Source: Phycisphaerales bacterium (GTDB lineage: Bacteria; Planctomycetota; Phycisphaerae; Phycisphaerales; UBA1924). Taken from it: 64,000 nucleotides of DNA. The stretch covers positions 252,226 through 316,225 of the forward strand of contig JAJDDK010000007.1 in NCBI GenBank assembly GCA_029260345.1, written 5' to 3'. A program made the translations under genes and the position numbers. Of this stretch, positions 22,801 to 44,052 are shown piece by piece (position 1 is the first letter of the stretch; the number at the start of each line of letters is the position of its first letter). The notes under the pieces were generated by a model. The model saw nothing but the letters and a program-made list of their open reading frames with translations. It was not told the DNA's origin and made no database searches.

Positions 22801-23400
22801 CAGGCTGGTCACTCACCGCGGTTGAACTCCCGCATGGCTCGGCAGAGGGCTGACGACTTAGAAGCGCGTCTCAAGAAGCGCCTGGATCTCCTTGAGCAGC
22901 AAAGACAAATTTCGCCTAGTCCTCCCGTCGCATTTGGCGGTGCTTTGGTGATCCCGCTGGGCCTCGTTAGTAGATATCTAGGCACGTCCACAGACCACGA
23001 TGGTGTTGATCCTGCCGAGCGACTGAGAATCGACCGCATCGCAGTCGAGACAGTTGTCCAGACTGAGAAGTCATTCGGCCGTGAACCAACGGTCATGCCT
23101 CACAACAACGAGGGATACGACATCGAAGTTCGCGATCCTTTGGAGCCCGGCCGGCTGCGTTTCATCGAAGTCAAAGGCAAAGCGGTCGGCAAGAATACTG
23201 TGACCGTCTCGGCGAGCCAGATTCGTTGCTGCTGCAATGCTCGCGACCAATGGACACTCGCAATAGTCCTTGTCGACGGAGAGGCAGCCATTGGCCCGAA
23301 GTATCTCCACGGCCCATTCGACCAGGCCCCAACATTCGCTGAAGTCGGTCGGAACTTCGATGTCAATGCTCTACTTGCGGATGCGGAGGATCCTGCATGA
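19876..23400 (+). CDS. SNF2/DEAD-like helicase with C-terminal DUF3883 (defence-associated)
   Basis: A 1174-residue superfamily 2 helicase. Walker A is ADDPGAGKTIMAG (~residues 128-140), the DEAH box is VIVDEAHKM (~227-235), motif III is LMTATPHNG (~265-273). The second RecA lobe carries LLATDAAGEGINLQ and the arginine-rich NPNRLEQRFGRIHRIGQ. The C-terminus (~1040-1140) is a DUF3883 module with NNEGYDIEVRDP and FIEVKGKAVG, a PD-(D/E)xK-like arrangement. Such helicases form the first gene of helicase-methylase-ATPase anti-phage loci. The ATG at 19876 has GGAG eight bases upstream and is preferred over GTG 19867. Its stop overlaps the next start by four bases, so it heads a long operon. Confidence 0.9.
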   Translation: MTRLEDLTTGATVLGILPTEPVTVVNANWIGTSAIDLVFKDAEGRVHNKLLYRDDESRLEIHAATRPWSFDAPGDLFRLVSEATRIRLAALFDPLLAVHSSLVEPLPHQIIAVYKEMLSRQPLRFLLADDPGAGKTIMAGLLIKELMARGDLERCLIVCPGSLVEQWQDELDSKFHLPFEIATNDKLEAARTGNWFFENPLTIGRLDKLSRDEDLHPKLRANQWDLVIVDEAHKMSASFYGNEVNYTKRYRLGQLLSGQTRHFLLMTATPHNGKEEDFQLFMALLDGDRFEGRPRDAVHTTDCSDLMRRLVKEQLRKFDGTPLFPERRAYTVGFTFSDREAQLYKDVTEYVREEFNRAEQLENDGRKGTVGFALTVLQRRLASSPEAIYQSLRRRRERLESHLREAQILARGGKSVVLEKLKTRQLSEEELEDLDSSDEQSAEEREETEEAVLDEATAARTIEELEIEIEILKRLEASSLALRRSGVDKKWDELSRLLQDQPEMFDAAGYRRKLIIFTEHRDTLSYLKDRIGTLLGRPEAIVSIVGGMGRDQRRAAEESFRHDKEVQVLLATDAAGEGINLQRAHLMVNYDLPWNPNRLEQRFGRIHRIGQTEVCHCWNLVAHETREGDVYRRLLEKLENQRAALGGEDAVFDVLGRLFHGTSLRQLLVEAIRYGEQPEVRARLEQAIDNATDRAHLRELIEEDALARDSMDSRKVQEVREEMERAEARRLQPHFIEALFMDSFKRVGGQISQREPRRFEITRVPASIRSRDRQIGQGAPVLHRYERVTFEKELINVLGKPSAAFVCPGHPLLDSVVDVVLEQYKPLLRQGAVLVDPSDGGVEPRVLFYLDHAIRDSVQTRDGQQRVISRRLQFVEISKNGDVRAAGSAPYLDYRPASSVEFAALAPELDQAWLMDNLESMALAHAVEHIVPEHIKEVKSPREELIEKSMVAVRSRLKREIAYWDHRAEELKMREQAGHSPRLNSRMARQRADDLEARLKKRLDLLEQQRQISPSPPVAFGGALVIPLGLVSRYLGTSTDHDGVDPAERLRIDRIAVETVVQTEKSFGREPTVMPHNNEGYDIEVRDPLEPGRLRFIEVKGKAVGKNTVTVSASQIRCCCNARDQWTLAIVLVDGEAAIGPKYLHGPFDQAPTFAEVGRNFDVNALLADAEDPA

Positions 23401-26400: not shown

Positions 26401-27665
26401 GGCGTCCGGTGTCCGACCTGGAGCTGGTGCTCTTCGATGACGCCGCTGTCCGCGTTCGAGAGCTCTTCGCGCCAATCAAGTCAGCGACCGCAGACTGCCG
26501 CTCACTGAGGTCTGAAGCACGACACCATGAGTGCTTCGCCGAGCTTCGCGACCTTGCGGCGAGCCTGACCTACCGGCCTGCGGAGTCCCAGGGTGACATG
26601 CCGCCCGCGGAGCAGCGGCAGTGGCTCCGGGAGACCGGGGAGTTCTTCTCGCGACTCCATAACGACGATGAGACGCTCCGCGATCAGATACGCGCGAGCG
26701 GCGGCAGGCTGGCAGAGACCGCGTGGCAGTCGTTCCAGTTGCTAAGCGTGCTCCCGTACCTCGATGGGTCACCTGCGGGCCAGGCCCATGAGCCAGTCGT
26801 CTTGTGGGACGAACGCACGCTCTACGTCAAGGAGGGATCGGCGGCTCGCGTGTGCGATGCCGTCGTCGCAGAGCTCTCTCGATGCTTCCCATCAGAGGCT
26901 GTACAGCGTGCTCTTCGCTCCTGCTACGAGCGAGACGCTGCATTCATCGCCGACTACCTCGCCGAGCACTTCGAGTTTGACGACGTTCTCGATCCCAAGA
27001 CCCCCGAAGCCGACACAGATCAATCGGGCGAGGAGAAGCCAGAAGCGCCGCGGGAGCCCACGAGCGAGGCACCCCAGCAGCCTAACCAGTCGCCGGAAGT
27101 CAGCGATCCAAACGCATCAAGTACCGACGCGGATCCCACCGATCAGGCAGCCGACGAGCCAGATTCCAGCCCCGGTGATTCGACAGTCGACGAACCAGTC
27201 AATATCGACGACGCGGGCGAGCAAGGTGAAGAAGAACCGCCGGACCCGGACGAGGCCGATCCGCAGCCCGAACCAACCCGCAAACCACCAACACCTCGCC
27301 AAGGGCCGCTCATCGCTCGGTTCGCCAAGAGCAAGGGGTTCCGGCCAACCGGAGTCAAGAACGAGTGGGCCCACCAAGACGGGAGCCGCCTGGAGCACAC
27401 GAGCGACATCTTCCCTTGGGTCCACAAGGACGGCGACCGAGTCATCCAGCGATTCTGGATCGCGGAACAAAGTCTGACACGCTCGGGCATCGACCTCGGC
27501 TCGGACGTCTGGGAGATGCTCCGTAAGCACCCCGAGCACTGCTCCTTCGTGCTGAGCGAGGACGAGCGACCGCTTGTCCTCCCGGGCACGACCTTGCTCC
27601 GCATGGTCCAGGGTGAGTCTCTTGAGTTGTTCGCGTCTCGATACCGCCTGAGGCGACCGGAGTAA
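23397..27665 (+). CDS. Sacsin-like GHKL (HSP90-type) ATPase protein
   Basis: A 1422-residue protein. Its N-terminus has an HSP90/sacsin-type ATP-binding fold: N-box SELLQNADDAGATEA at residues ~58-72 and the glycine loop TIGFRGIGFKSTF at ~111-123. The long middle region is alpha/beta without a named domain. An acidic, Pro/Asp/Glu-rich linker (~1185-1305) leads to a C-terminal domain (GFRPTGVKNEWAHQDGSRLE, then FPWVHKDGDRVIQRFW). Bacterial sacsin-like proteins are frequent in defence islands, as possible sensors or chaperone-type switches. The ATG overlaps the helicase stop (ATGA), so it is translationally coupled. It is not part of the minimal helicase-methylase-ATPase trio and is best seen as embedded. 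Confidence 0.82.
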   Translation: MTFSASAKVQTRQSPPPYFDQVCREATELWRKLDEDPVLAGPWRQLFSQVQSPRHVLSELLQNADDAGATEASASLHDGSFCFRHSGSDFTHQQFISLCRFGFSNKRNLHTIGFRGIGFKSTFSLGPDVTVLTPSLAVRFNQTRFTKPEWIADGEPSSDTQIRVGLQDEHREAELRKNLKDWTESPTSLLFFSNIRSLEIDGQRIERKTIDKGPIPRSEWVELSTIPNNPLLVVWSEYEDFPEEAVAEIRKERFSEEVELPPCRVELVLGLPFTQRLFVVLPTGVKPNVPFCCNAPFVQDPARLGIKEPSVSPTNRWLLDRLGALAAESMSTWLGNATIPLSERAKAYELLPEVSEERDDTDSVVTEIICSSMDDSLSESPVLLTENGEVLPAKECFAPPRPLYRVWTATQLLEAFGGTQSDLLSHAVTDPHRIRLSEWGWLDRTSGQDILHALEGGTRPSRPDSWPAVAELWQFISRHVRYDHGGKTRRRLAIIPVLNSDDLAPANDVVRVSDTRRGVRTDDWRFIIDGLCQLHPDWIEAVQSASETDALFGGLGDMLGELGLADPTPIDRVIRHRAETFFDSEELDREECVRFAHLLAALDATSPECFEFVTRDNVRRTSDDSLFVDDGALEQLVPPAWADERFLHEDYEAEFVHCARDQWSSWSRSTKSGLSTGSFFETNSQTPWNWTKRDAEQFLESRGVGRPSTYHYRTPSFQITDHDFDRRLRPFWEKLALNDQTIWARVLERILLAPPHERAKVLYAELHECWGAYTRRVQCGTIPAKWLVSLRGLVCIPDTHGKLREPAQLLLRSPDTEPLLGAEAFVSAELDTPANRELLLLLGARATPAGADSILNRIRALSEAETPPLTELGKWYDALDRVLGRRRPDDLELIREAFSDQSLIFTEQGEWACLGEVFQRLYEDDPPGLPTVHPEFRQLSIWSVIGVSERPSPDLLVDYVDGFDSGQKLDGNQLKRVRAVLREQPSRIWNECGHWLALDGNWRPVSDLELVLFDDAAVRVRELFAPIKSATADCRSLRSEARHHECFAELRDLAASLTYRPAESQGDMPPAEQRQWLRETGEFFSRLHNDDETLRDQIRASGGRLAETAWQSFQLLSVLPYLDGSPAGQAHEPVVLWDERTLYVKEGSAARVCDAVVAELSRCFPSEAVQRALRSCYERDAAFIADYLAEHFEFDDVLDPKTPEADTDQSGEEKPEAPREPTSEAPQQPNQSPEVSDPNASSTDADPTDQAADEPDSSPGDSTVDEPVNIDDAGEQGEEEPPDPDEADPQPEPTRKPPTPRQGPLIARFAKSKGFRPTGVKNEWAHQDGSRLEHTSDIFPWVHKDGDRVIQRFWIAEQSLTRSGIDLGSDVWEMLRKHPEHCSFVLSEDERPLVLPGTTLLRMVQGESLELFASRYRLRRPE

Positions 27666-27671
27666 TCAGGT

Positions 27672-28643
27672 ATGGCTAAGAAGAAGCGAACAAAGAAGAA
27701 GACCGGACGGGCACGCCCCCAACCAACCGCAGAGCGCCGCATCATGTTCTATCGCATTGATTGCGGCCGCGATGATGCGGGAACGCCGATCGCCTACGCA
27801 CCAGGTCCGGCGTTGAACCACATCAATGGGCTGCCATGGACCAACACAGGCCGCTATCAGCCAGCGTCCGATGGTGACGTTGTCTGTTCATGGGTCGATC
27901 GCAGTCAAGCCAACCAGCAAATGCGTTTCGCGACGGTTCGACGGGCGAGCCTACCTCTCGTCGAGAACGGGAGCGGCACCTTGTCTCCCCTGAACATCGC
28001 TGCGAACGCTGGCCTGAGCGAGATCACCCACCTGGTCTTCTTCCCGAACAACATCCTCGGCGCCGTCTTCAACTTCTACGGCCCGCGTCCCACGCGCTTG
28101 GCCGCCTATCTAAAGGCACGGGTTCCGAACACGCCGCTGGACCTGACGATCAATCCACTCATTCGCACGGACATCACTGAAGAGCTTGACCGCTTCGAGA
28201 CTCTCAGGGTCGTCAATCTGAAGATCCGCCCGTCCTATACAGAGACCATCGCTCAGGCGGACGAGAGTCTCGGCCAGTCATTTGCTGCCGCGCAATCTGC
28301 GGTTACAGATCAGGCCGAGGAGGTCGCCCTTTCTTTGTCCGCTGGTCGGAAGAAGAGAGCTCACCTCGGCGACTCGCTGATGGGATTTGTTCGCCGGATG
28401 GTGGGCCGAGACGACCTTCACGAGAACGCCATGCAATTCACTATGAGTGGCCTGGACACTGAGACTCAGCGGTCTGCAACGCTCGACCTGCTCAGTGACA
28501 AGCTCGTGAGCACAAAGCGCATCATCAAGCAGAGCCAGCGATCCCGAGCACTCGACACCGAGTCGGCCTACGCCGCGGTCCAGGAGGCATACAACGAACT
28601 CCACGACCAGCTTCAGGCGGCTGCTGCAGCGGAGTTGGAGTGA
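27672..28643 (+). CDS. Defence-operon protein of unknown family (323 aa)
   Basis: A basic N-terminus (MAKKKRTKKKTGRARPQPT) precedes IMFYRIDCGRDDAG and an alpha/beta body (SEITHLVFFPNNILGAVFNF, YGPRPTRLAAYLKA, LRVVNLKIRPSYTETI). The C-terminal ~110 residues are helical. I do not recognise the family with certainty; it recalls the soluble partners of two-gene membrane systems in size and layout. It starts seven bases after the sacsin-like gene, and its stop overlaps (TGATG) the start of a four-helix membrane protein, so these two are probably a functional pair. Confidence 0.75.
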   Translation: MAKKKRTKKKTGRARPQPTAERRIMFYRIDCGRDDAGTPIAYAPGPALNHINGLPWTNTGRYQPASDGDVVCSWVDRSQANQQMRFATVRRASLPLVENGSGTLSPLNIAANAGLSEITHLVFFPNNILGAVFNFYGPRPTRLAAYLKARVPNTPLDLTINPLIRTDITEELDRFETLRVVNLKIRPSYTETIAQADESLGQSFAAAQSAVTDQAEEVALSLSAGRKKRAHLGDSLMGFVRRMVGRDDLHENAMQFTMSGLDTETQRSATLDLLSDKLVSTKRIIKQSQRSRALDTESAYAAVQEAYNELHDQLQAAAAAELE

Positions 28644-29167
28644 TGGCAAAGAAGAAGGACAAGCCACTGCGCAGCTTCTGGGCAAGCCACTTCCTCTGGT
28701 GCGAGTTGGCTGTTGTCGCAATCGCCTGGGGTCTCTTTGTGGCCTGGGGCGTCCGGTGGGGCGGGCATGATCAGCTAATCGATTTCATGGCAGACCGTCG
28801 AGGTACGATCTACGGTGTTCTCGCTGGCATCTTCGGTTCACTGCTTGGCTTCGCGATCGCGGCGGAAGCAATCGTGCTCAGCCTGTCCGGCAGCGACAAG
28901 CTCTCTGTAGTCAGAAGCAGCAAGCACTACCCAACGCTCTGGCGAGTCTTCCGCTGGACGATTCGGACACTCGCTTTGGCAACAGTCGCTGCCTTGATCG
29001 CACTACTACTCGATCGAGACAAGCAACCGTGGATGGCGTGGCTGTACGGGTGCGCGTTTTTCACGTTCCTCGCTATCGCACAACTCGCCCGTACCATTTG
29101 GGTGCTGGAACAGGTCGTGCACGTTGTCTCGACTCCAAGCACGAAGGAATCGAGCAACAATGGCTGA
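28643..29167 (+). CDS. Four-helix membrane protein, candidate defence effector
   Basis: A 174-residue integral membrane protein. Predicted helices are CELAVVAIAWGLFVAWGV, GTIYGVLAGIFGSLLGFAIA (running into EAIVLSL), TLALATVAALIALLL and AWLYGCAFFTFLAIAQLA. It starts with a basic MAKKKDKPLR. The ATG overlaps the previous stop and the end overlaps the methylase start by eight bases. In several anti-phage systems the second gene is a small membrane protein that damages or signals at the membrane. Such a role here is inference from context. Confidence 0.75.
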   Translation: MAKKKDKPLRSFWASHFLWCELAVVAIAWGLFVAWGVRWGGHDQLIDFMADRRGTIYGVLAGIFGSLLGFAIAAEAIVLSLSGSDKLSVVRSSKHYPTLWRVFRWTIRTLALATVAALIALLLDRDKQPWMAWLYGCAFFTFLAIAQLARTIWVLEQVVHVVSTPSTKESSNNG

Positions 29168-32129
29168 CACATCTCCCCGCCGCAAGAAGCTCATCGAGGT
29201 CGCCCTCCCTCTCGAGGCCATCAGCGAGGAGTCGTCGCGTCGCAAACGCAAGGCACCCAAGGGATATCCTACGACGCTGCACTGGTGGTATGCCCAGCGC
29301 CCGGTAGCTGCATGCAGAGCTGTCATCTTCTCTTCGCTCGTCGACGACCCATCCTCCGACCCCGCCTTCCGCAACGCCGACGGCACAGTCGATGAAGATC
29401 GCGCCGGCCTCCGCCGCACCGAGCTTTTTGATCTCATCGAGCAGCTCGTCCTGTGGGAAAACTCCAACAACCCAGCCGTCATCAACGCCGCCCGCGCCGA
29501 GATCGCCGCCTCGGTCGTCAGCAGCAAGGTCGAGCTCGGCGAGCTGCAGAAAGACACCATCGTCTTCGGCAAGAGCGAGGGCAAGCCGCACCCGGACGGC
29601 CCGATGGCCGACGACGGCGGCACGGCATGGCGGGTCATGCTGCGTCGCTCCAAGCCCGAGATCGTCAACCACGTCCTCGCGACCTACGCCCCGCTCGTGC
29701 TCGACCCCTTCGCCGGCGGCGGGTCCATCCCCCTCGAAGCCCAGCGGCTCGGCCTGCGGGCCCACGCGTCCGACCTCAACCCCGTCGCGGTCCTCATAAA
29801 CAAGGCTCTGATCGAGATCCCGCCGAAGTTCGCTGATCAGCCGCCGGTGCACCCGGACGCCGAGACCAAGACCGGCTGGTCGGGGGCGTCGGGCCTGGCC
29901 GAGGATGTCCGACGCTACGGCCAGTGGATGCGCGATGAGGCCGAACAACGCATCGGGCGCTTCTACCCCAAGGTGAAGATCACCGAAGCGATGACGAAAG
30001 ACCGCCCGGACCTGAAGCCCTATGTGGGGCAGGAACTCACGGTGATCGCCTGGCTATGGGCGCGGACAGTCACGTCCCCCAATCCCGCGTTCGCAGGCGT
30101 TCATGTCCCGCTGGCCGCCTCGTTCTGGCTCAGCAAGAAGAAGGGCAAAGAGGCGTGGGTCAAGCCCGTGGTCGATCGCGAAGGCAAAGCGTGGTCGTTC
30201 AAAGTCATGGTCGGGAAGCCAAGCGACAACTTTGATCCATCAACTGGTACGGTGAAGCGTGCGGGCGGCACATGTCTGCTCAGTGAATCGCCGATGCCGT
30301 TCGATCACATTCGGGAAGAAGGGAAAGCGGGTCGGATGCAGCAACGGCTCATGGCCATCGTCTGCGAAGGTCATCGCGGGCGAATCTATTTGGATCCGTT
30401 GCCGGAACAGGAGCAGATCGCACAGGAAGTCATTGCGGACGACTACCCCATCACTGATCTGCCCGAGAAAGCACTGGGCTTTCGCATCCAGCTCTACGGC
30501 ATGGACCAGCACTGGAAGCTCTTCACCCCGCGGCAGTTGACGGCGTCGGTAACGTTCAGCGATCTGGTGGGCGAGGCGCGGGCCAGGGCCCTCGCCAATG
30601 CCACCGCCGCCCAACACCTCGACCCCAGGGCCTATGCCGACGCAGTCGCGACGTATCTCGCGTTTGCGGTGAGCCGCATGCTTGATTACAACAGCGCTTT
30701 TGCTACATGGCGGGCTAAGGACAACGCCATGCGATCGACCATAGGAAAGCAAGCCCTTCCGATGGTCTGGGACTTTGCAGAGGCCAATCCACTTGCAAAG
30801 TCAAGCAGCGGCTGTGTCCCTGCATGCAAGGTCGTCGCTTCAGCCGTCGAGCTTCTTCCAGCTGGGATCCCCGGGGCGGCAACACAGGCTGATGCATCTC
30901 GCCCTTCACTGTCGGGTGAATATGTGTGCTGTACAGATCCTCCTTATTACGACAATGTCGGCTATGCCGACTTGTCGGACTTCTTCTTTATTTGGCTTCG
31001 TAGGTCGCTAAAGGACGTCTATCCTGACTTGTCTGCCACAGTTCTCACTCCGAAGTCTGACGAGATCATCGCGTCTCCGTATCGACACGCCGGAGGCGCT
31101 GCGGAAGCTCGGCAGTTCTTTGAGAGCCGACTAGGAGACGCGTTCTTTCACGTGCGAGAGCACGCCGATCCATTTGGCCGCATTACGATCTTCTATGCAT
31201 TTAAGCAGTCGGAATCCGATGATACTGGCGATGCCAGCACAGGATGGGAAACGTTTCTCACTGCAGTCATCAATCGCGGATTGGTAATCCACGCGACTTG
31301 GCCCATGCGTACCGAGGGCGATAATCGTCAGGTTGGTATTGACACCAATGCATTGGCATCATCAATCGTCCTGGCATGCTCACCACGTCCAGGTGGCTCA
31401 CCAATGGCGACGCGGCGTGAGTTCGCCGACGCCCTGCGTGCCGAGCTGCCCGAAGCAATCCGCCACCTTCAGTCGGGCAATGTGGCGCCGGTGGACCTAG
31501 CGCAGGCCTCGATCGGGCCCGGCGTCAGCGTCTTCAGCCGCTACAGCAAGGTCGTCAACGCAGACGGCACGCCCATGAGCGTGCGCGAGGCGCTGCAACT
31601 GATCAACCATGTGCTCGATGAAGCCCTCACAGAACAGGAAGGCGACTTCGACGCCGAGACACGCTTCGCCCTCAAGTGGTTCGAGCAGTACGGCGTGAAG
31701 GAGGGCCCCTTCGGCGACGCCGAGACGCTCGCCAAGGCGATGGCGGTGAGCGTGCAGGGCGTTGTGGAGTCGGGTGTGGCGGTGAGCAGGGCCGGCAAGG
31801 TTCGTCTGCTGCGTTCGGACGAGCTCGACCCCGCGTGGGACCCGCAGACCGACACGCGCCTGACGATCTGGGAGGTGTCCCAGCACCTGATCCGCGAGCT
31901 TGAGCAGAGCGGCGAGCCGGCCGCCGCGGACCTGCTCCGTCGCGTCGGCTCCGGAGCCGGACAGACCGCACGCGAGCTCGCCTACCGCCTATACCAGACC
32001 TGCGAGCGGAAGAAGTGGGCCGACTGGGCCCGCAGCTACAACGGCCTCGTCGTGTCGTGGCCCGAAATCGAAAAGCTGGCACGCGAGCGGCCCCGCACGG
32101 AGGCAGCAGCGCAGTCAGAAATGTTCTAA
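29160..32129 (+). CDS. DUF1156 adenine-specific DNA methylase (defence-associated)
   Basis: A 989-residue amino-methyltransferase of the type found in anti-phage islands. The N-terminal DUF1156 block is visible as KLIEVALPLEAISEESSRR followed by HWWYAQRPVAACRAVIFSSL. The SAM-binding motif LDPFAGGGSIPLEA is near residue ~180. The catalytic motif CTDPPYYDNVGYADLSDFFF, with DPPY, is near ~593, giving the gamma/alpha-type order with a long insertion. It probably marks host DNA while the helicase and ATPase act on unmarked DNA; that role is inferred. The ATG at 29160 is favoured over 29124 and overlaps the membrane-protein gene. Confidence 0.9.
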   Translation: MADTSPRRKKLIEVALPLEAISEESSRRKRKAPKGYPTTLHWWYAQRPVAACRAVIFSSLVDDPSSDPAFRNADGTVDEDRAGLRRTELFDLIEQLVLWENSNNPAVINAARAEIAASVVSSKVELGELQKDTIVFGKSEGKPHPDGPMADDGGTAWRVMLRRSKPEIVNHVLATYAPLVLDPFAGGGSIPLEAQRLGLRAHASDLNPVAVLINKALIEIPPKFADQPPVHPDAETKTGWSGASGLAEDVRRYGQWMRDEAEQRIGRFYPKVKITEAMTKDRPDLKPYVGQELTVIAWLWARTVTSPNPAFAGVHVPLAASFWLSKKKGKEAWVKPVVDREGKAWSFKVMVGKPSDNFDPSTGTVKRAGGTCLLSESPMPFDHIREEGKAGRMQQRLMAIVCEGHRGRIYLDPLPEQEQIAQEVIADDYPITDLPEKALGFRIQLYGMDQHWKLFTPRQLTASVTFSDLVGEARARALANATAAQHLDPRAYADAVATYLAFAVSRMLDYNSAFATWRAKDNAMRSTIGKQALPMVWDFAEANPLAKSSSGCVPACKVVASAVELLPAGIPGAATQADASRPSLSGEYVCCTDPPYYDNVGYADLSDFFFIWLRRSLKDVYPDLSATVLTPKSDEIIASPYRHAGGAAEARQFFESRLGDAFFHVREHADPFGRITIFYAFKQSESDDTGDASTGWETFLTAVINRGLVIHATWPMRTEGDNRQVGIDTNALASSIVLACSPRPGGSPMATRREFADALRAELPEAIRHLQSGNVAPVDLAQASIGPGVSVFSRYSKVVNADGTPMSVREALQLINHVLDEALTEQEGDFDAETRFALKWFEQYGVKEGPFGDAETLAKAMAVSVQGVVESGVAVSRAGKVRLLRSDELDPAWDPQTDTRLTIWEVSQHLIRELEQSGEPAAADLLRRVGSGAGQTARELAYRLYQTCERKKWADWARSYNGLVVSWPEIEKLARERPRTEAAAQSEMF

Positions 32130-32196
32130 TGGATGAGCAGTCGCAGACCACACGTCAAAGAGGCGATGACGTCCGGGTTTGAATGGAGACCCCAAG

Positions 32197-33960
32197 ATGG
32201 CGTTTCAGACACCAATCACTATTAGGGACGCATTGGGATGCATTGAGGATCGCAAATATGCGCTTCCAGCCATTCAGCGTGAATTCGTCTGGCCTCCAGA
32301 GAAAATTTGCGCGCTCTTTGACAGCCTGATGAGGGGGTACCCGATCGGCTCATTCCTGTTCTGGCACGTGCAAGAGGAATATTGCCGCGAATTCAAGTTC
32401 TACGACTTCATGCGGGAGTATCACGAACGGACAAATCGCCATTGCGACCCGCTTGAGATCACTCAGCCGCGCTCATTGACTGCAGTTCTTGATGGACAGC
32501 AGCGCCTGACGGCGTTCAATATTGCGTTTCGCGGAAGCATGGCGACCAAAGTCCCCCGAAAACGGCGGAACAATCCCAATGCATACCCCAAGAAGCGACT
32601 CCATCTCAATTTGCTGGGTGAGGCGGGCGAGAACGAAGCGAACCTGAAGTATGACTTCCGCTTTCTCACCGAAGACGCCGCGCGTGAGCGAACCAGCAAT
32701 CAGCTCTGGTTCCCCGTTCCCGATGTCATGCAGCTGAAGAACACAAGCACTGCGATTAACAGATTCCTCATTCGTGAGGGGATCTCTGATAATGAGACGG
32801 CGTTTGAATTACTCGCAGGCTTGTATGATCTGCTCAATCGCGATGCCACTGTTGTCTATTTCTTGGAGAAAGAACAGGACCTCGACAAGGTTCTCAATAT
32901 CTTCATACGCGTCAACAGTGGGGCCACGCCGCTGAGCTACTCCGACTTGTTGATGAGCATTGCGACAGCCTCCTGGAAAGATCTTGATGCGCGCGATGCG
33001 ATCCACAATCTCGTGGACGACCTCAATGAAACTCGAGATGGCTTTGCGCTGAGCAAGGACTTCGTCCTCAAAGCCGGGTTAATGCTTACGGATATCAGCA
33101 GCGTGGGATTCAAGGTTACCAATTTCAATGCGCAGAATATGGCCACGCTTGAGGACAATTGGGACCGAATCAGTAGCGCCCTGCATCTCACCGTCCGTTT
33201 GGCAGCCCAGTTTGGGTTTTCCGAGCACACACTCTCTGCCGACAGTGCACTCCTACCGATCGCCTATTCCCTCTATCAACGAAGACTCTCGGATTCGTAT
33301 CTCGCGAGCGTCCAACACAAAGAGGACCGCGAAGCGATTCGCGGATGGCTCACTCGCTCTTTGCTGAAGTCAGGTGTTTGGGGCTCAGGTCTGGACACAA
33401 CCCTCACCGCCATCCGTAGCGTGCTCGGCAAGCACGGAGAGTCACGGTTTCCGGTGGAGGAGATCGAAGCCGAGATGGCGCGCCGAGGCCGAGGGCTTCA
33501 ATTCTCAGACGAAGAGATTGAGGATCTCACCGAAGTCTCTTATGGCGATCGGCGCTGTTTCCCCCTGCTGTCGATCCTGTTCCCGTTTGTAAACCTCCGG
33601 GATGAATTTCACATTGATCACGTTTTTCCGCGGTCGCGCGTCACCCGCCGAGAGTTGAAGAAACTCGGAGTCGACAGCGTAGATGCGGATGTCATGCAGG
33701 AGCAGCGAGATCTACTCCCGAATCTGCAGCTTCTCCCGGGGGCAATGAACCAGTCCAAAGGAAGCGAAATGCCGGCCGCATGGCTTGATCGGGAGTTCAC
33801 AAGGCCCGGAGAAAAAGACGCCTACTGCGAGCAACATGCTTTGGGGGCGATTCCCGATAGTCTGTCGGACTTTGAGTTGTTCTATTCCAACCGGCGAGAG
33901 CGGCTCAATCAACTCATTCGAACGGCTCTTGGCTCTTCGAAGTCAACCGTGGAAGTGTAA
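32197..33960 (+). CDS. DUF262 / HNH (GmrSD-like) nuclease-type protein
   Basis: A 587-residue protein. The N-terminal DUF262 (ParB/sulfiredoxin-like) has the PAIQREFVWP motif and the nucleotide-binding VLDGQQRLTAF near residue ~98. The C-terminal half has a DUF1524-type HNH segment, FHIDHVFPRSRV (~470), followed by LPNLQLLPGAMNQSKG, as in GmrSD type IV modification-dependent restriction enzymes. Fusion of both domains in one chain is the usual active form. ATG 32197 with GGAG upstream is preferred to TTG 32179. It lies between the methylase and the DUF499 gene and may be an accessory nuclease. Confidence 0.88.
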   Translation: MAFQTPITIRDALGCIEDRKYALPAIQREFVWPPEKICALFDSLMRGYPIGSFLFWHVQEEYCREFKFYDFMREYHERTNRHCDPLEITQPRSLTAVLDGQQRLTAFNIAFRGSMATKVPRKRRNNPNAYPKKRLHLNLLGEAGENEANLKYDFRFLTEDAARERTSNQLWFPVPDVMQLKNTSTAINRFLIREGISDNETAFELLAGLYDLLNRDATVVYFLEKEQDLDKVLNIFIRVNSGATPLSYSDLLMSIATASWKDLDARDAIHNLVDDLNETRDGFALSKDFVLKAGLMLTDISSVGFKVTNFNAQNMATLEDNWDRISSALHLTVRLAAQFGFSEHTLSADSALLPIAYSLYQRRLSDSYLASVQHKEDREAIRGWLTRSLLKSGVWGSGLDTTLTAIRSVLGKHGESRFPVEEIEAEMARRGRGLQFSDEEIEDLTEVSYGDRRCFPLLSILFPFVNLRDEFHIDHVFPRSRVTRRELKKLGVDSVDADVMQEQRDLLPNLQLLPGAMNQSKGSEMPAAWLDREFTRPGEKDAYCEQHALGAIPDSLSDFELFYSNRRERLNQLIRTALGSSKSTVEV

Positions 33961-33975
33961 GAGGGCCAGAGTCGT

Positions 33976-37263
<3,288 letters not shown>

Positions 37264-37585: not shown

Positions 37586-39211
37586 TCATCCTCCATCCAT
37601 TCTGCATAGCGCATCCCAATCCAAGCCAAACCGCGCAAGGTATTTCCGCACCCGATCTGAATCATTTGTTGACTTGCGACGCATTCGTGAGGCCGCGAAT
37701 AATTTGCGACCGGCTTCCGAGAGCGATCGTGACTCACGGCACACGGTAATGACGAGCTCAAGCTGGGGGCGGTCGAAGAGGTCGATGGTTTCAAGCTTCT
37801 CAGGTGACAGGACTTCTTCGAGCAGGCTGAAGTGGCTCCCCTGTGCGCGGGTTCTCCATGCGACGCCGAGTCGATCAATTTCCAACTTGACGACGTCGTC
37901 GTTGATGCGGCCGCCGGGCGCCAGCGTCGCCATGCGGGTGATCGAGGCGCTGAGATCGCGAAAGTTGCCTGACCAGTACGCATCCGACGATGTCGCGAAA
38001 GTGACGTAGCGGCTCCGCGCCTCACGGCTGAAGCGGACGAGCTGGCCGCGCTGTTTGGCGTGGGCATCAAGCTCGTAGTCGATGTTCGGCTCGATATCCT
38101 CCGGGCGATCGCGGAGCGACGGCAACTGGAAAGTCCACAGGTTAATGCGCGCCAGCAAGTCCTCGCGGAACTCGCCTTTCTCGACCTGGGTCAATAAGTC
38201 GCGATTGGTGCCGGCGAGTAATTGGAACTCGCTGCTGGACTCTTTGTCCGACCCCAGCGGAAGGAAGCGCTTCTCTTCGACTGCGCGCAAGAGCATCGCT
38301 TGTTCGTCGAGACCGAGTTCGCCAATTTCATCGAGGAAGAGCATGCCTTGGTTAGCGCTACGCAGCAGACCTTGCCGGTCTGATGTGGCGCCGGTGAAAG
38401 CGCCCTTCTTATGGCCGAACAGTGTGGACATGGCGCCGTCGCCGCGAAGCGTGGCGCAATTGACTTCGACAAGTTCGCCTTCAACGAGGCGGCGGTGTTT
38501 TCGCAACTCAAAAATACGGCGCGCAAGGCGAGACTTACCGGCGCCCGTCGGGCCAGTGACGAGAATTGGGTCAGTCGTTCGCGCTGCGACATGCTCGATT
38601 TCTTCGATGAGCCGATTAAAAGCCTTGTTGCGCGTTTCAATGCCGTCTTTCAGTGAAGCAATGGCGTCTTCGTGCTCGCGCTCGAATCGTGATGCGAGGC
38701 GATCGTACTTTGACAAGTCGAGATCGATGACCTGCAAGACGCCTGCGCCATCGGCCTTGGCGCGCGGCGGGCCGGTCTGAATCAATTTGCCCGGAAAATA
38801 CCGCGCCTCCGCCAGCAGGAACTCACAAATTTGCGCGACGTGTGTGCCGGTCGTGATGTGAAGCAGGTAGTCCTCGTTGTCCGTGTCGAAGGGATACGCC
38901 GCGACGAAGTCGTGCAACGTCGCATAGACCTCTTGAAAGTCCCATGGGTCTCGAAAGTCGACCTGATGGAGGATGACTTCCGTCTCGGGTGACACCGACT
39001 TGATGTCTTCGGTCACGACGTCGGCGAGCTTGGACCAGCGCTTGCCGCACAGCAGATCAAGGCGATCGACGAGGAAGTCTTCGTGCTGGCACAAAGACAC
39101 CGTTGGCCGCCAGCGCTCCCAGCGCTTGTGCCCTTTGCCCATGTCGAGGGACGTGCCGAGCAGTCCCAGCACCACCATCCGCCGGTCTCGAGATTCAGAC
39201 TCGTGCGCCAT
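37586..39211 (-). CDS. rtcR: RtcR, sigma-54 activator of the RNA-repair operon
   Basis: A 541-residue bacterial enhancer-binding protein that switches on rtcBA-type operons. The N-terminal CARF-like RtcR domain (MVVLGLLGTSLDMGKGHKRW, then YLLHITTGTHVAQICEFLLA) senses a signal linked to RNA damage. The central AAA+ domain has Walker A GPTGAGKS, the sigma-54-contacting GAFTGA loop and LFLDEIGEL. A C-terminal helical region follows. It closely follows the E. coli RtcR pattern throughout. ATG 39211 has AGGA eight bases upstream and is preferred to 39232. It is divergent from rsr, with a sigma-54 promoter in between, the classic arrangement for control. Confidence 0.96.
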   Translation of the reverse strand: MAHESESRDRRMVVLGLLGTSLDMGKGHKRWERWRPTVSLCQHEDFLVDRLDLLCGKRWSKLADVVTEDIKSVSPETEVILHQVDFRDPWDFQEVYATLHDFVAAYPFDTDNEDYLLHITTGTHVAQICEFLLAEARYFPGKLIQTGPPRAKADGAGVLQVIDLDLSKYDRLASRFEREHEDAIASLKDGIETRNKAFNRLIEEIEHVAARTTDPILVTGPTGAGKSRLARRIFELRKHRRLVEGELVEVNCATLRGDGAMSTLFGHKKGAFTGATSDRQGLLRSANQGMLFLDEIGELGLDEQAMLLRAVEEKRFLPLGSDKESSSEFQLLAGTNRDLLTQVEKGEFREDLLARINLWTFQLPSLRDRPEDIEPNIDYELDAHAKQRGQLVRFSREARSRYVTFATSSDAYWSGNFRDLSASITRMATLAPGGRINDDVVKLEIDRLGVAWRTRAQGSHFSLLEEVLSPEKLETIDLFDRPQLELVITVCRESRSLSEAGRKLFAASRMRRKSTNDSDRVRKYLARFGLDWDALCRMDGG

Positions 39212-39254
39212 TGATTGTTCCTCGGCCGACATGTATATCGAAAATAATCATTTC

Positions 39255-39379: not shown

Positions 39380-39395
39380 TGGCACGGCCTCTGCA
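39380..39395 (+). promoter_or_regulatory. Sigma-54 promoter of the rsr-Y RNA-rtcBA operon
   Basis: TGGCACGGCCTCTGCA matches the sigma-54 consensus (TGGCACG-N4-TTGCA) at all but one position, with the -24 GG and -12 GC exactly ten bases apart. It lies 50 bases before the rsr start and faces it, opposite the rtcR gene, whose product needs such a promoter. Confidence 0.9.
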
Positions 39396-39444: not shown

Positions 39445-41007
39445 ATGGCCAACAAGACCCTCTTCAATTCGACTCGTGGCCGCATGGCGGCGCCGGCGAA
39501 CTCGATCAACGAGGCTGGCGGCGCGTCGTACTCGATGGATGGGAAGCACCAGCTCGCGCAGTACGCGGCGACCGGGTGCATGAACTCCACGTTCTATGCG
39601 AGCGCCGCGACTCAGCTCGACACGGTGCTCAAGTTGTGCACGCAAGTTGAGCCGGAGTTCGTCGCTCGCACGGCGCTCTACTGCCGCAACGAAGGCCACA
39701 TGAAGGATCTCCCGGCGCTCTTGTGCGCCTGGCTGTCAGTGTCATCGCCGGGTCTGCTCGCCGAAGTCTTCGATCGCGTAATCGACTCGCCGAAGATGCT
39801 CCGCAACTTCGTGCAGATCATGCGTTCGGGCGTGGTTGGGCGCAAGTCGCTCGGCACACTTCCGAAGCGTTTGATTCGTCAGTGGCTTGAGAGCCGCAGC
39901 GATGAGCAGATCTTCTTCGGTTCGATCGGCGCTGATCCGTCCTTGGCGGACGTCATCAGGATGGTTCACCCGAAGCCGGCGACAGCGAGCCGTGAAGCGT
40001 TGTACGCGTACTTGATTGGACGCGACCACAGCGCGGAGTCGCTCCCGGAGATCGTGAAGTCGTACGAAGCCTTTAGGGCGGGTGCGACTTCCGACGTTCC
40101 GGACGTTCCGTTTCAGCTGCTCACGTCGCTTCAGCTTGACGGCGCGGCGTGGAAGGACATCGCGAAGCGCTCGCCGTGGCAGACGACGCGTATGAACTTG
40201 AACACCTACGCGCGCCACGGTGTGTTTGACGATCCGGAGGTGGTGTCAGTCGTTGCCGCGAAGCTTTCTGATCGATCGCTCGTTCAGCGCTCTCGTGTGT
40301 TTCCGTACCAGCTCCTCACGGCGTATTCGATGGCGAATGCGTCTCTTCCGCAGGAGATTCTCGCGGCGCTCGAGGCCGCACTCGAGATCGCGTGTTCGAA
40401 TGTGCCGTCGATTCCGGGGAAGACGTATGTGTTTGTCGATGTCTCCGGTTCGATGCACTCGTCGATCACGGGGTATCGCAAGGGCGCGACTTCGAAGGTG
40501 AGCTGTGTGGACGTCGCCGCACTTGTCGCGGCGTGCGTGCTTCGCAGGAATCCGACGGCTGAGGTCATCCCGTTCAGCAACGATGTGGTGTGGACGAAGC
40601 TCAATCCGCGCGACACGGTGATGACGAACGCCCAGAAGCTTTCGTCGCTCCCGGCGGGCGGCACCAACTGCGCTGCGCCGCTTCTTGAACTCAACCGCCG
40701 CAAGAAGGAGGCGGACACGGTGATCTATGTCTCGGACAACCAATCCTGGATGGACACGACTCCGACGATGTGGCGTCAGGGATCCGGGACCGCGAAAGCC
40801 TGGGAGGAATTCAAGGCGCGGAATCCGAAGGCGCGCATGGTGTGCATCGATTTGCAGCCGTATGGGGCGCTCGTTGCAAAGGATCAAGCGGACGTCTTGA
40901 ACATCGGCGGCTTTTCCGACGCCGTGTTCAAGGTCATTGGAAAGTTCGCCACGCGGAGCGATGACGCGAGGCACTGGACGAACGTGATCGAACGCATCGC
41001 GATTTGA
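39445..41007 (+). CDS. rsr: Rsr, TROVE-domain Ro60 ortholog
   Basis: A 520-residue ring-shaped RNA-binding protein that holds Y RNAs and misfolded RNAs. The N-terminal ~310 residues are the TROVE HEAT-like ring (HQLAQYAATGCMNSTFYASA, then FVARTALYCRNEGHMKDLPA). The C-terminal von Willebrand A domain carries the MIDAS motif VDVSGSMHSS and the Thr/Gly loop GGTNCAAPL. ATG 39445 has AAAGGA upstream; the long in-frame extension from 39103 runs through the promoter and is ruled out. It is the first gene of the RtcR-controlled operon, and two Y RNAs, its expected ligands, lie directly downstream. Confidence 0.96.
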   Translation: MANKTLFNSTRGRMAAPANSINEAGGASYSMDGKHQLAQYAATGCMNSTFYASAATQLDTVLKLCTQVEPEFVARTALYCRNEGHMKDLPALLCAWLSVSSPGLLAEVFDRVIDSPKMLRNFVQIMRSGVVGRKSLGTLPKRLIRQWLESRSDEQIFFGSIGADPSLADVIRMVHPKPATASREALYAYLIGRDHSAESLPEIVKSYEAFRAGATSDVPDVPFQLLTSLQLDGAAWKDIAKRSPWQTTRMNLNTYARHGVFDDPEVVSVVAAKLSDRSLVQRSRVFPYQLLTAYSMANASLPQEILAALEAALEIACSNVPSIPGKTYVFVDVSGSMHSSITGYRKGATSKVSCVDVAALVAACVLRRNPTAEVIPFSNDVVWTKLNPRDTVMTNAQKLSSLPAGGTNCAAPLLELNRRKKEADTVIYVSDNQSWMDTTPTMWRQGSGTAKAWEEFKARNPKARMVCIDLQPYGALVAKDQADVLNIGGFSDAVFKVIGKFATRSDDARHWTNVIERIAI

Positions 41008-41016
41008 GTTTGGGCG

Positions 41017-41044
41017 CGGCCCCCGGCAATCGGGCCGGGGGCCG
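41017..41044 (+). promoter_or_regulatory. Strong hairpin after rsr
   Basis: A perfect 11-bp GC stem (CGGCCCCCGGC / GCCGGGGGCCG) with a six-base loop starts nine bases after the rsr stop. No T run follows, so it is more likely an mRNA 3'-end stabiliser or a processing/attenuation element that separates rsr mRNA from the Y RNA part than a full terminator. Confidence 0.75.
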
Positions 41045-41074
41045 ATGGCCAACTCACACTGAAGGAGAACGAAT

Positions 41075-41232
41075 AAGCGCAGGCCTTGCGAATGCCGGTG
41101 GGACTACAGGTCAACATCCTCGTGGACGCGGGTTCGAATCCCGCTCGCCCCACTTCATTCACTCTTGGGGCGGTAGCTCAGCTGGTAGAGCGCGTAATTG
41201 TCTCATCAACACTTGTCGCAACCCTGCGTTTT
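41075..41232 (+). ncRNA. Y RNA 1 with permuted tRNA-mimic domain
   Basis: A Ro-binding type RNA found by pairing. The outer stem is 41075-41083 (AAGCGCAGG) with 41223-41231, then TTGCGA (41086-41091) with TCGCAA (41216-41221), unpaired CC opposing C. An internal loop (ATGCCG / CAACACTTG) and an upper helix GTGGGAC (41098-41104) with GTCTCAT (41199-41205) follow. A tRNA-like domain comes next in permuted order: T arm 41128-41144 with loop TTCGAAT, acceptor 3' strand TCGCCCC (41145-41151), a 15-base cap, acceptor 5' strand GGGGCGG (41167-41173), TA, and D arm 41176-41191. This is the layout known for bacterial YrlA RNAs, where the Ro-binding stem replaces the anticodon arm. A T run follows the last stem. 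Confidence 0.85.
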
Positions 41233-41272
41233 CAAGACAAATCTGGGTGACCAAGACATCATCCATTCAGCA

Positions 41273-41409
41273 TTGCGGCGAATGCCTGAGGAACTACATC
41301 AGATTCGTGCATTGCGGGTTCGAGTCCCGCTCCGGCCTTGCCGGGTAGCTCAATTGGTAGAGCATCGATGGCCCTAGGCCATGTGTTTCTCAAATCCTTG
41401 TCGCCGCGA
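41273..41409 (+). ncRNA. Y RNA 2 with permuted tRNA-mimic domain
   Basis: A second Y RNA of the same plan. The outer stem is TTGCGGCGA (41273-41281) with TCGCCGCGA (41401-41409), nine pairs. The internal loop ATGCC / AATCCTTG shares ATGCC and CTTG with Y RNA 1. The upper helix is TGAGGAAC (41287-41294) with GTTTCTCA (41385-41392). The tRNA-like part is a T arm 41314-41330 with loop TTCGAGT, an acceptor-like stem TCCGGC/GCCGGG with a three-base cap (41331-41345), TA, and a D arm 41348-41363. An additional six-pair hairpin (41368-41382) lies after the D arm. It ends one base before the tRNA-like gene, so tRNA 5' processing would also trim this RNA's 3' end. Confidence 0.85.
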
Positions 41410-41410
41410 C

Positions 41411-41483
41411 TGCCCCGTAGCTCAGTTGGAAGAGCGCCGCGCTACGAATGCGGAAGCCGCAGGTTCGAATCCTGCCGGGGCCA
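41411..41483 (+). tRNA. tRNA-Arg (anticodon ACG)-like gene in the RNA-repair operon
   Basis: A normal-order cloverleaf. The acceptor TGCCCCG / CGGGGCC pairs at six positions, but the first pair is a T-C mismatch. The D arm is GCTC/GAGC. The anticodon stem is CCGCG/TGCGG with loop CTACGAA and anticodon ACG (41444-41446). The T arm GCAGG/CCTGC has loop TTCGAAT. The discriminator is A; CCA is not encoded. It abuts Y RNA 2 and lies 32 bases before rtcB. It may be a working tRNA, a decoy or a processing signal; the mismatch at the acceptor end is unusual for a working tRNA. Confidence 0.8.
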
Positions 41484-41515
41484 TTCCTACTCTCTCCTTA
41501 CTCTCGGAGATCGTC

Positions 41516-43015
41516 ATGTCTGACTCACCAACTCATCCGTTCATCGAGACCGGCGACGCGACGGCGATTCTGCCGCTGCCAAACGATCAGAAGCCGATCA
41601 CCGTGATCGGAACGGACGCGATCCGCCGCACGTTTGACGATGGCTGCATGCGTCAGGCGATCAATTCGGCGATGGCGCCCGGGGTTTCAAATCTCGTTTT
41701 GAATCCGGATGCGCACGTCGGCTATGGCACGCCGGTCGGCTGCGTGATGACGAGCCCATCGCACATTTATCCAGGCCCAGTGGGCGTGGACATCAAGTGC
41801 TCGATGAGTTTGCTGGCGTTTAATATCGATGAGGATGCCGTGCGTGACAAGCGCACGCGCCGTGCGCTCATTGATGCGATCAGCGAGCGCACGCCGACGG
41901 GAACTGGTCGTGGCCAGCGCAATGTGGCGAAGTCGCGCCCGGTTGATCTGGCGCTTGGCACGCAAGCGGTCTCCGAGGGCGCCTCTCAGGATGTGTGCGA
42001 GCAGCTCGGCATTCCGGTTCACTGGGCGTCACGCTGTGAGGACAGTCAGCACACCGGGCATGATGGCTCATCAGACACGTTGCGCGCGCGGCTTGAGCGG
42101 TTGTCCTCAAGCGGCCGCAACAAGCAGCGGATTCCCGCGACGATGGGCCAGCTTGGCTCATATGGTGGCGGCAATCACTTTGGCGAGTGTGAAATTGTGC
42201 GCGTCGATCCTTCGGATCGCGCCCGCGCCGTCGCCGAGACGTTTGGTCTGCGCGACGGCGGCGTTGCATTCCTCTCCCACTGCGGCTCGCGCGGCTTCGG
42301 GCACGATCTGGCAAGTGGTCATTTCAAGTCGCTCCAAGAGCACTTCACCCAGTGGGGCATCCCGCTGCCGGGTGGCGATCGTCAGCTTGTTCATGCGCCG
42401 CTTGGCTCGCCGGAGGCGAATGCGTATCTCGATGACATGGCGCTCGGCGCGAACTTCGCGACAGTCAATCACCTCCTTATCAATGCGCTTGTGCTTGAAG
42501 CGTTTCAGGAGGTCTTCCCCGGCATCAATGGAGATCTTGTCTACTTCATCAGTCACAACATCGCGCGGCGGGAGCCGATCGACAATCGCATGGAGTGGGT
42601 GCATCGCAAGGGCGCCACACGCGCGTTCCCGGCTGGACACCCGGGCCTCAATGGCACGCCGTTCGAGAACACGGGTCACCCGATCCTTCTGCCGGGCAAT
42701 CCGCAGGCGGGTTCCGCAGTGATGGTGGCGGACCCCGATGCGCGCAAGTCCTGCTTCAGTGTGAATCACGGCGCCGGTCGCATTATGGGCCGCCGCGCTG
42801 CGGCTCGGACGCTCAATCAGAGGGAGATCAATCAGTCGTTTGACGACACGGACATCTTGACGAACTGCCGCAACTATCCGATTGACGAGGCGCCGGCGGC
42901 GTATAAGAACTTTGATGAGGTGCTCACGTCCGTGAAGCAGGCCGGGCTGGCGAGTGAGGTCGCGCGGCTGCACGCGCGCTTTGTGATCAAGGACGGCGAC
43001 AAGGCGGATGATTAA
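41516..43015 (+). CDS. rtcB: RtcB RNA ligase (2',3'-cyclic phosphate / 5'-OH)
   Basis: Joins RNA ends left by tRNA-cleaving toxins or damage, using GTP and Mn2+. It has 499 residues. Metal- and GMP-binding motifs are present: NPDAHVGYGTPVGC, PVGVDIKCSM, LGSYGGGNHFGECE, SHCGSRGFGH and the GMP-linking His region FSVNHGAGRIMGR, plus WVHRKGATRAFPAGH. ATG 41516 follows CGGAGA; the in-frame extension back to 41381 runs through the tRNA gene and is not used. It is the third protein gene of the rsr operon, followed by rtcA after 11 bases. Confidence 0.97.
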   Translation: MSDSPTHPFIETGDATAILPLPNDQKPITVIGTDAIRRTFDDGCMRQAINSAMAPGVSNLVLNPDAHVGYGTPVGCVMTSPSHIYPGPVGVDIKCSMSLLAFNIDEDAVRDKRTRRALIDAISERTPTGTGRGQRNVAKSRPVDLALGTQAVSEGASQDVCEQLGIPVHWASRCEDSQHTGHDGSSDTLRARLERLSSSGRNKQRIPATMGQLGSYGGGNHFGECEIVRVDPSDRARAVAETFGLRDGGVAFLSHCGSRGFGHDLASGHFKSLQEHFTQWGIPLPGGDRQLVHAPLGSPEANAYLDDMALGANFATVNHLLINALVLEAFQEVFPGINGDLVYFISHNIARREPIDNRMEWVHRKGATRAFPAGHPGLNGTPFENTGHPILLPGNPQAGSAVMVADPDARKSCFSVNHGAGRIMGRRAAARTLNQREINQSFDDTDILTNCRNYPIDEAPAAYKNFDEVLTSVKQAGLASEVARLHARFVIKDGDKADD

Positions 43016-43026
43016 GGCAGCCATTC

Positions 43027-44052
43027 ATGAGTTCAGACCTCATCCACATTGACGGTTCATTCGGCGAGGGCGGCGGACAGATCCTGCGCACGTCGCTGGC
43101 GCTGTCCGTCGCAACGGGCCGACCATTCCGCATCGAGAACATCCGCGCGAATCGATCGAAGCCGGGCTTGCTGCGCCAGCATTTGACGGCGGTGCAGGCG
43201 GCGACGGCGATTTCGGGCGCCCGTGTTGTCGGCGACGCGGTGAACTCCACCTGTATTGAGTTTCATCCGGACGAACTCCGCTGCGGCGATTATCACTTTT
43301 CAATCGGCACCGCTGGCAGCACCACGCTTGTGCTTCAGACGATTCTTCCAGCACTCATGCTCGGAGAGGCGCCATCAACAATCTCGCTCGAGGGCGGCAC
43401 GCACAATGCCTATGCACCGAGCGTTCATTTTCTCACGCGCGCGTTCTTGCCCCTCGTCGAACGCATGGGGCCGCGCGTTTCGATTGAGCTGGAGCGCCAC
43501 GGCTTCTATCCGGCTGGTGGCGGGCGCATTTGCGCGCGCATTGAGCCGGTCAAGAAGTTGACGCCGTTGACGCTCTTGGAGCGCGGAGATGAAGTTCGCC
43601 GCAGCGCGACGGCAACGGTCGCCAATCTTTCCGGCGATATCGCCAAGCGCGAGCTTGCCATCATTCAGCAAAAGCTCAGCTTCCCCGATGAGGCGCTGAA
43701 GATTGAACAGATCAAGGATGCGATTGGTCCGGGCAATATCCTCAGCATTGAGATCGAGTCGGAGCACGTGACCGAAGTCTTTACCGGCTTCGGCGAGCGC
43801 GGCGTCGCGGCCGAGCGGATTGCAGCCGAGACCGCCAAAGACGTGCGGCGTTATTTGGGTTCAACAGCGCCAGTTGGCCGACACTTGGCAGATCAGTTGA
43901 TGATTCCGTTTGCGCTTGCTGGCGACGGTGAGTTCCGGACGGGCAGACTGTCAGGACATTCGGAGACGAATCTCGAGACAATCGGCTGGTTTCTCCCAAG
44001 CCGCTTGGAAGTCGTTAACCGCGACGACTCTGTTGACATTCAGGCGCAGTGA
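43027..44052 (+). CDS. rtcA: RtcA RNA 3'-terminal phosphate cyclase
   Basis: Converts RNA 3'-phosphates to 2',3'-cyclic phosphates with ATP, producing ends that RtcB can join. It has 341 residues, the usual length. Visible marks are the N-terminal DGSFGEGGGQILRTSLALS, the HGFYPAGGGRI segment, and the active-site His within APVGRHLADQLMIPFAL. It follows rtcB by 11 bases and closes the operon. No clear terminator was found after it. Confidence 0.97.
   Translation: MSSDLIHIDGSFGEGGGQILRTSLALSVATGRPFRIENIRANRSKPGLLRQHLTAVQAATAISGARVVGDAVNSTCIEFHPDELRCGDYHFSIGTAGSTTLVLQTILPALMLGEAPSTISLEGGTHNAYAPSVHFLTRAFLPLVERMGPRVSIELERHGFYPAGGGRICARIEPVKKLTPLTLLERGDEVRRSATATVANLSGDIAKRELAIIQQKLSFPDEALKIEQIKDAIGPGNILSIEIESEHVTEVFTGFGERGVAAERIAAETAKDVRRYLGSTAPVGRHLADQLMIPFALAGDGEFRTGRLSGHSETNLETIGWFLPSRLEVVNRDDSVDIQAQ

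Follow-up and report, generated by a model that had tools for sequence, protein, structure and literature searches.

Among the closest described systems is the Salmonella operon rsr-yrlBA-rtcBA, in which two Y RNAs lie between rsr and rtcB; RtcR is activated there by damaged tRNAs, and YrlA is described as not being cut in that organism (PMC7790460). A Y RNA of D. radiodurans tethers Rsr to PNPase (quoted in PMC7790460). Other studies touch on tRNA genes. A TROVE gene is described in 20 of 29 archaeal tRNA clusters (PMC6333295), and in Anabaena a stress-induced trn operon of 26 spare tRNAs is co-regulated with rtcB under TrcR (PMC10272220). A Listeria phage carries an Rsr-like gene near tRNA genes, with strongly transcribed regions proposed to be Y RNAs (PMC12282133), TROVE proteins of jumbo phages have already been published, and phage tRNAs have been proposed to escape anticodon nuclease (PMC10264068).

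The locus analyzed here lies in a stretch of 64,000 nucleotides from a Phycisphaerales bacterium, which we call the window. It resembles the Salmonella YrlA locus in the position of the Y RNAs between rsr and rtcB, the permuted tRNA mimic, the presence of more than one Y RNA, and RtcR/sigma-54 control, but differs in having two full mimics in a row, a real tRNA directly after them, an extra hairpin in the second Y RNA, and a planctomycete host. The Anabaena trn system similarly places spare tRNAs and rtcB under one stress regulator, but at separate loci and under a repressor in place of RtcR, and the terms Rsr and Ro60 are absent from that report (PMC10272220).

Two permuted Y RNAs between rsr and rtcB

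The intergenic gap between rsr and rtcB measures 508 bp (41008-41515). The original prediction placed in it a tandem pair of Y RNAs whose tRNA-mimic domains are permuted, and proposed a covariance-model search as a check. That search bears the prediction out, as both copies score above the cut-off of the Rfam YrlA model, the second by a marginal 0.6 bits (Table 1). Four Rfam matches pass the curated gathering thresholds in the whole window, namely the two Y RNAs and two tRNAs, one at 41411-41483 and one distant (8798-8872), and across the genome of the window only these two copies pass the YrlA cut-off. A covariance model of our own (R1), built from 26 YrlA hits that we chose, gives 112.6 bits for Y RNA 1 and 94.7 bits for Y RNA 2, scores that are not independent because both window copies went into the model. 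ARAGORN calls no tRNA within either Y RNA; a circularly permuted tRNA gene was rejected on this ground and because the Y stem replaces the anticodon arm, and a tmRNA was rejected because the two copies score 25.5 and 20.3 bits where the cut-offs are 47. With the score, the covarying Y stem closing a permuted tRNA-like domain, and the adjoining Rsr gene all in place, the sequence evidence identifies the two RNAs as genuine YrlA family members in a little-studied host.

Both copies show the predicted order of T arm, acceptor 3' strand, cap, acceptor 5' strand, and D arm, and their outer strands pair as the long stem that had been proposed, here the Y stem. Each copy runs from the Y stem 5' strand, with CGAATGC, through the inner stem, the T arm, and the acceptor 3' strand to the cap, and continues with the acceptor 5' strand, the D arm, the inner stem 3' strand, CTTGTCG, and the Y stem 3' strand. 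In Y RNA 1, the stems comprise an outer CGCAGG/CCTGCG and a lower TTGCGA/TCGCAA, followed by the inner stem and the permuted mimic. The canonical fold with its tRNA-like helices lies within 1.5 kcal/mol of the minimum for both Y RNAs, and the minimum-energy fold of Y RNA 2 is non-canonical, with its T and D arms mispaired. Single-sequence folding energies (z -1.04 for Y RNA 1, z -3.00 for Y RNA 2) are weak evidence for these RNAs and not decisive alone. The best similarity to a tRNA is 36.5/49 (Asp) for Y RNA 1 and a tie at 33.5/47 for Y RNA 2, matches so low or tied that no specific mimicked tRNA can be assigned. A Y RNA with tRNA-type base modifications is said to have been described by Chen and co-workers in 2014.

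Comparative evidence comes from an alignment, made without structure, of 26 YrlA sequences, consisting of the two window copies and 24 sequences from 21 loci of the same phylum. Changes on both sides are seen in 26 of the 31 predicted pairs, and 97.1% of the pairing cells hold a pair. The pairs reach a covariation score of 0.643, whereas shuffled partners give 0.177 and slid partners 0.09-0.12; as the alignment itself served to derive the structure, the comparison with slid versions is tilted in its favor. Covariation across the 26 sequences is strong, and the absence of compensatory stem changes in relatives, which had been named as grounds for abandoning the prediction, is not what we find. 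The two window copies had also been said to covary with each other. This is real but small: 6 of the 31 pairs differ on both sides and 1 on one side, while 19 are identical and 5 gapped or unpaired.

Table 1. Coordinates of the RNA elements, genes, and promoter of the repair operon in the window
Feature	Position	Strand	Support
rtcR, sigma-54 activator, divergent from rsr	37586-39232	-	NCBIfam RNA_repair_RtcR 808.9 bits, cut-off 650; Pfam RtcR 276.5 bits
Sigma-54-like -24/-12 promoter TGGCACGGCCTCTGCA	39380-39395	+	11/12 consensus positions
rsr, bacterial Ro60	39445-41007	+	vWA_Ro60 74.1 bits, TROVE 30.6 bits
Hairpin after rsr stop	41018-41043	+	Core CCCGGCAATCGGGCCGGG 41022-41039
Y RNA 1 (YrlA type), with outer stem	41078-41228	+	RF02553 75.6 bits at 41085-41225
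Y RNA 1 T arm	41128-41144	+	
Y RNA 1 acceptor 3' strand, cap loop, acceptor 5' strand	41146-41172	+	
Y RNA 1 D arm	41176-41191	+	
Y RNA 2 (YrlA type)	41275-41410	+	RF02553 69.6 bits, cut-off 69
Y RNA 2 T arm	41314-41330	+	
Y RNA 2 acceptor strands, very short cap	41332-41345	+	
Y RNA 2 D arm	41348-41363	+	
Y RNA 2 extra hairpin ATGGCC-CTA-GGCCAT, between D arm and Y stem	41368-41382	+	
tRNA-Arg(ACG), anticodon loop CTACGAA	41411-41483	+	ARAGORN; RF00005 61.9 bits
rtcB RNA ligase	41516-43015	+	Pfam RtcB 344.7 bits
rtcA RNA 3'-phosphate cyclase	43027-44052	+	NCBIfam 437.9 bits, cut-off 352

Operon proteins and promoter

The surroundings of the Y RNAs are those of an RtcR-controlled RNA-repair operon, with a divergent rtcR, a sigma-54 promoter motif, rtcB, and rtcA. 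The sigma-54 promoter of the original prediction is matched by a putative site 65 nt 5' of the rsr ATG, scored against a sigma-54 consensus. A site matching at least 10 of the 12 positions is present at 31 of 48 divergent RtcR/Rsr loci, against 0.26 expected by shuffling, and 17 of the 48 fall below that level.

The Rsr protein lies far under the NCBIfam Rsr cut-off (83.3 vs 900 bits), and its TROVE match is weak. A profile of 25 relatives matches the D. radiodurans Rsr structure 2nvo (E 7.2e-35), the AlphaFold2 model has a pLDDT of 85.5, and its 13 best Foldseek matches are all Ro60/TROVE structures. The protein is a diverged member of the Ro60 family. Its distribution in the order is patchy, with a match at E <1e-80 in 26 of 400 genomes.

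Directly 3' of the rsr stop lies a strong GC hairpin without a T run; its 18-base core occurs once in the window and is identical in the relatives L128, L129, and L130. Immediately beyond rtcR and pointing toward it, PADLOC finds an Hma anti-phage system (HmaA, HmaB, HmaC), accompanied by a HEC-05/GmrSD-like gene (19867-37263). HmaC has an N-terminal HEPN_Swt1 domain, of a type common in RNases, and thus a possible source of RNA damage adjoins the repair operon.

A tRNA-Arg of a distinct lineage in the operon

The tRNA-Arg(ACG) gene abuts Y RNA 2, with 0 nt between the end of the model match and the tRNA start, which falls 4 nt after the Y core stem (4 to 13 nt in L128, L129, and L130). Two more tRNA-Arg(ACG) genes occur elsewhere in the genome, with scores of 65.7 and 70.2 bits against 61.9 for the operon copy, and the latter differs from both in its anticodon stem and in having the loop CTACGAA for CTACGGA (A37 for G37). 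It also has a T1.C72 acceptor mismatch where relatives have A1-T72 or G1-C72, and together with the lower score this suggests that the copy may be weak or decaying. Among 17 matches to a tRNA-Arg(ACG) pattern in 10 genomes, 15 fall in called tRNAs; the 4 operon copies among these all have CTACGAA, and 10 of the 11 non-operon copies have CTACGGA, the sole exception, in G399, having CTACGAA. Among relatives, seven loci (L128, L129, L140, L154, L173, L197, L380) carry a tRNA-Arg(ACG) that either neighbors a Y RNA or follows shortly after rsr, and all share the CTACGAA loop with the window; the copies of L154, L173, L197, and L380 are additional to the 4 operon copies above. Calls of Arg(acg) by ARAGORN at L079 and L199 were discarded as false, being placed on Y RNA sequence.

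The CTACGAA lineage recurs at the operon site in five genera of the family. Within the same family, 14 loci have a near-full Rsr match, the window included (two have one TGA in the Rsr frame, and G769 and G743, with partial or weak Rsr, are excluded); tRNA-Arg(ACG) is present at 5, degenerate at 1, and absent at 8, one of which has tRNA-Pro and tRNA-Leu there. The operon tRNA-Arg is thus not required. Odd D arms are a further observation: the operon tRNA-Arg of L173 has one, and two tRNAs (Asp, Arg) after Rsr in L197 (4429-4578) have D arms of the GGG...CCC type. The genome of the window also contains, at a contig end, a run of tRNA-Glu, Asp, Ala, Leu, Leu, Arg, and Tyr (G000 C1:1-1100, L110), all of which except Tyr are duplicated by a gene of the same anticodon elsewhere in the genome.

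Y RNA cassettes at other Rsr loci

To place the pair in context, we used 80 Rsr loci from named genomes, which are the best 80 of 581 and therefore lean to near relatives, and several of which lie on short contigs. A pattern search in these best 80 of 581 finds 253 Rsr-stem cassettes on the Rsr strand and 7 on the opposite strand, against 10 in one base-shuffled copy of each of the 80 loci. With 5 cassettes of long body removed, at least two cassettes are found at 68 of the 80 loci, and at least two with a full T-plus-D mimic at 33 of the 80. The remaining 248 cassettes were sorted into classes that are rough, since the patterns miss some T and D arms: 82 with no tRNA-like part found (median body 21.5 nt), 64 with a T arm, 100 with T and D arms, and 2 with a D arm only. 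A search with R1 in the window and the same 80 loci yields 301 matches at E 0.01 or better; all but 1 of the 300 matches listed are on the Rsr strand, and some of them span tRNA junctions.

Minimal Y RNAs, with the Rsr stem and without a tRNA-like part, are seen at L128 (11634-11693) and in its relatives, and are the first cassette after rsr in several loci; the pattern search finds no minimal Y RNA in the gap of the window. In the same phylum, YrlA matches are tallied in 98 of 392 genomes at E 0.001 or better and above the cut-off in 5 of 392, the tally below the cut-off being unreliable because many weak matches span tRNA junctions; matches of about 20-40 bits in tRNA arrays were discarded as counts for the same reason.

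Set beside these loci, the Y RNA pair of the window is a small example of a common arrangement. The original prediction had called two Y RNAs plus a tRNA under one sigma-54 promoter little described. For the two Y RNAs this does not stand, as the Salmonella operon and the 68 of 80 loci make them an already known kind of arrangement. For the tRNA it may hold, in that we found no report of tRNA genes within bacterial rsr-rtcBA operons in the literature covered, which does not extend to the main Y RNA papers. The spare operon tRNA and the link between Rsr and tRNA sets are the less ordinary part and the one worth following.

A proposed repair-plus-resupply role and its alternatives

The sequence shows the RNAs with their permuted mimic fold, the order of the genes, a promoter motif, and a Ro60 fold. 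On this basis, the account that we consider probable is an RtcR/sigma-54 repair operon, rsr-Y1-Y2-tRNA-Arg-rtcB-rtcA, that encodes two YrlA-type Y RNAs and one tRNA-Arg(ACG) and would have a repair-plus-resupply role. By analogy with published work on relatives, broken tRNA ends would activate RtcR and switch the operon on, Rsr would bind the conserved Y stems of the Y RNAs, and RtcA and RtcB would mend the cut RNAs and their ends. The tRNA-mimic domain lacks an anticodon arm and would act as a tether or gate that anticodon nucleases could not cut. RNase P, needed to release the abutting tRNA, would with its cut at the tRNA 5' end (41410/41411) also trim Y RNA 2 and make its 3' end. The tRNA-Arg would then be a replacement copy, resupplied during tRNA cleavage and restoring lost decoding capacity, and its A37 lineage might evade an anticodon nuclease, an escape of the sort proposed for phage tRNAs (PMC10264068).

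Several other readings have to be weighed against this one. The Y RNA matches could be an artefact of tRNA remnants, in which the T arm of one tRNA and the D arm of the next imitate a permuted domain. Such artefacts do occur: the genome holds one further match to the YrlA model, at C1:242-360 with 31.5 bits, which is a false positive that spans the junction of tRNA-Asp and tRNA-Ala, and matches below the cut-off are found in 7 of 14 control genomes. Both window copies, however, score above the cut-off, lie clear of any called tRNA, and retain a covarying Y stem, and we regard an artefact as highly improbable. A different question is what the mimic domain does: instead of tethering Rsr to a nuclease, it might act as a decoy, sequestering nucleases that cut tRNA or other proteins that bind it. 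A mimic with T and D arms and no anticodon would fit this, and Hughes et al. list competitive inhibition of anticodon nuclease as one possibility; the tethering of Rsr to PNPase by the D. radiodurans Y RNA speaks against it, as do the 82 of 248 cassettes classed without a tRNA-like part, a class that includes some whose T arm the pattern misses. We consider a decoy possible but unlikely.

Closer to an even chance, though still short of it, is the reading that the tRNA-Arg does not serve to replace damaged tRNA but marks a processing site, is a copy in decay, or was inserted by chance. The tight junction with Y RNA 2, the similarly short spacing in the three relatives, and the absence or degeneracy of the gene at most of the same-family loci speak for this reading. 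Against this stand the recurrence of the CTACGAA lineage at the site across five genera and the large tRNA sets that adjoin Rsr elsewhere. Returning to the repair-plus-resupply role, a tRNA of a diverged lineage beside the mimics, together with the large tRNA sets by Rsr in other phyla, opens two questions to direct testing: whether the module replaces tRNAs destroyed by a nuclease, and whether the spare tRNA resists it.

tRNA sets beside Rsr more widely

Within up to 10 kb on each side of Rsr at the best 80 of 581 loci, at least 1 tRNA is called at 26 loci, at least 5 at 14, and at least 10 at 11; 286 tRNAs share the strand of Rsr and 14 do not, counts that include one false call (L199). At three loci, from Acidobacteria, the tRNAs represent every one of the 20 amino acids. 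As a control, recA loci of 38 genomes have 11 tRNAs in 662 kb and no more than 2 at any one locus, whereas the Rsr loci have 280 in 769 kb, a contrast that is inflated because these are 38 of 40 genomes hand-picked from the 80 and hold 10 of the 11 loci with at least 10 tRNAs. When the set is limited to the 58 loci flanked on either side by 2.5 kb or more, arrays of at least 10 tRNAs are present at 8 of 15 loci without RtcR vs 1 of 43 with RtcR (Fisher p 2.6e-5); an exclusion between RtcR and arrays was set aside as confounded by ancestry, since 9 of the 11 array loci, judged from their record titles, belong to Acidobacteria (including Blastocatellia and Pyrinomonadaceae).

The one complete chromosome with both RtcR and an array is that of Adhaeretor mobilis (L132). 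With 150 of 221 candidates scored, it has at least 72 tRNA genes, 28 in the array and 44 elsewhere by coordinates, and the array is thus a second tRNA set. A GC hairpin that resembles a terminator and is followed by a T run separates this array from rtcA, and co-transcription of the two is not supported.

Among 46 viral Rsr pieces, some of them near-duplicates, 18 have at least 5 tRNAs, and the 385 tRNAs are all on the Rsr strand; a Y RNA match of at least 60 bits is present in 20 of the 46, and 10 have both a Y RNA and at least 5 tRNAs. These phage arrays resemble the bacterial Rsr loci in combining Rsr, tRNAs on the Rsr strand, and Y RNA matches, but differ in belonging to phage genomes and in that no RtcR match was found in the 46 pieces. 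The archaeal clusters likewise have a TROVE (Ro60) gene among tRNAs; they differ in belonging to Archaea, and the passage on them makes no mention of Y RNAs, RtcR, or rtcBA (PMC6333295). We tentatively raise, as an idea that is rather less probable than not, that Ro60/Y RNA loci are broader tRNA-crisis modules, shared with phages, which would combine repair by RtcAB, sorting by Rsr and the Y RNA mimics, and resupply of replacement tRNAs that differ from the housekeeping copies in the anticodon loop and are perhaps nuclease-resistant, ranging from one tRNA-Arg, as in the window, to near-complete sets of about 30 tRNAs.

Bacteria normally use the ACG anticodon for tRNA-Arg, GCG being unusual; a tRNA-Arg with a GCG anticodon is found in the Rsr-linked arrays of L081, L132, L172, L193, and L200.
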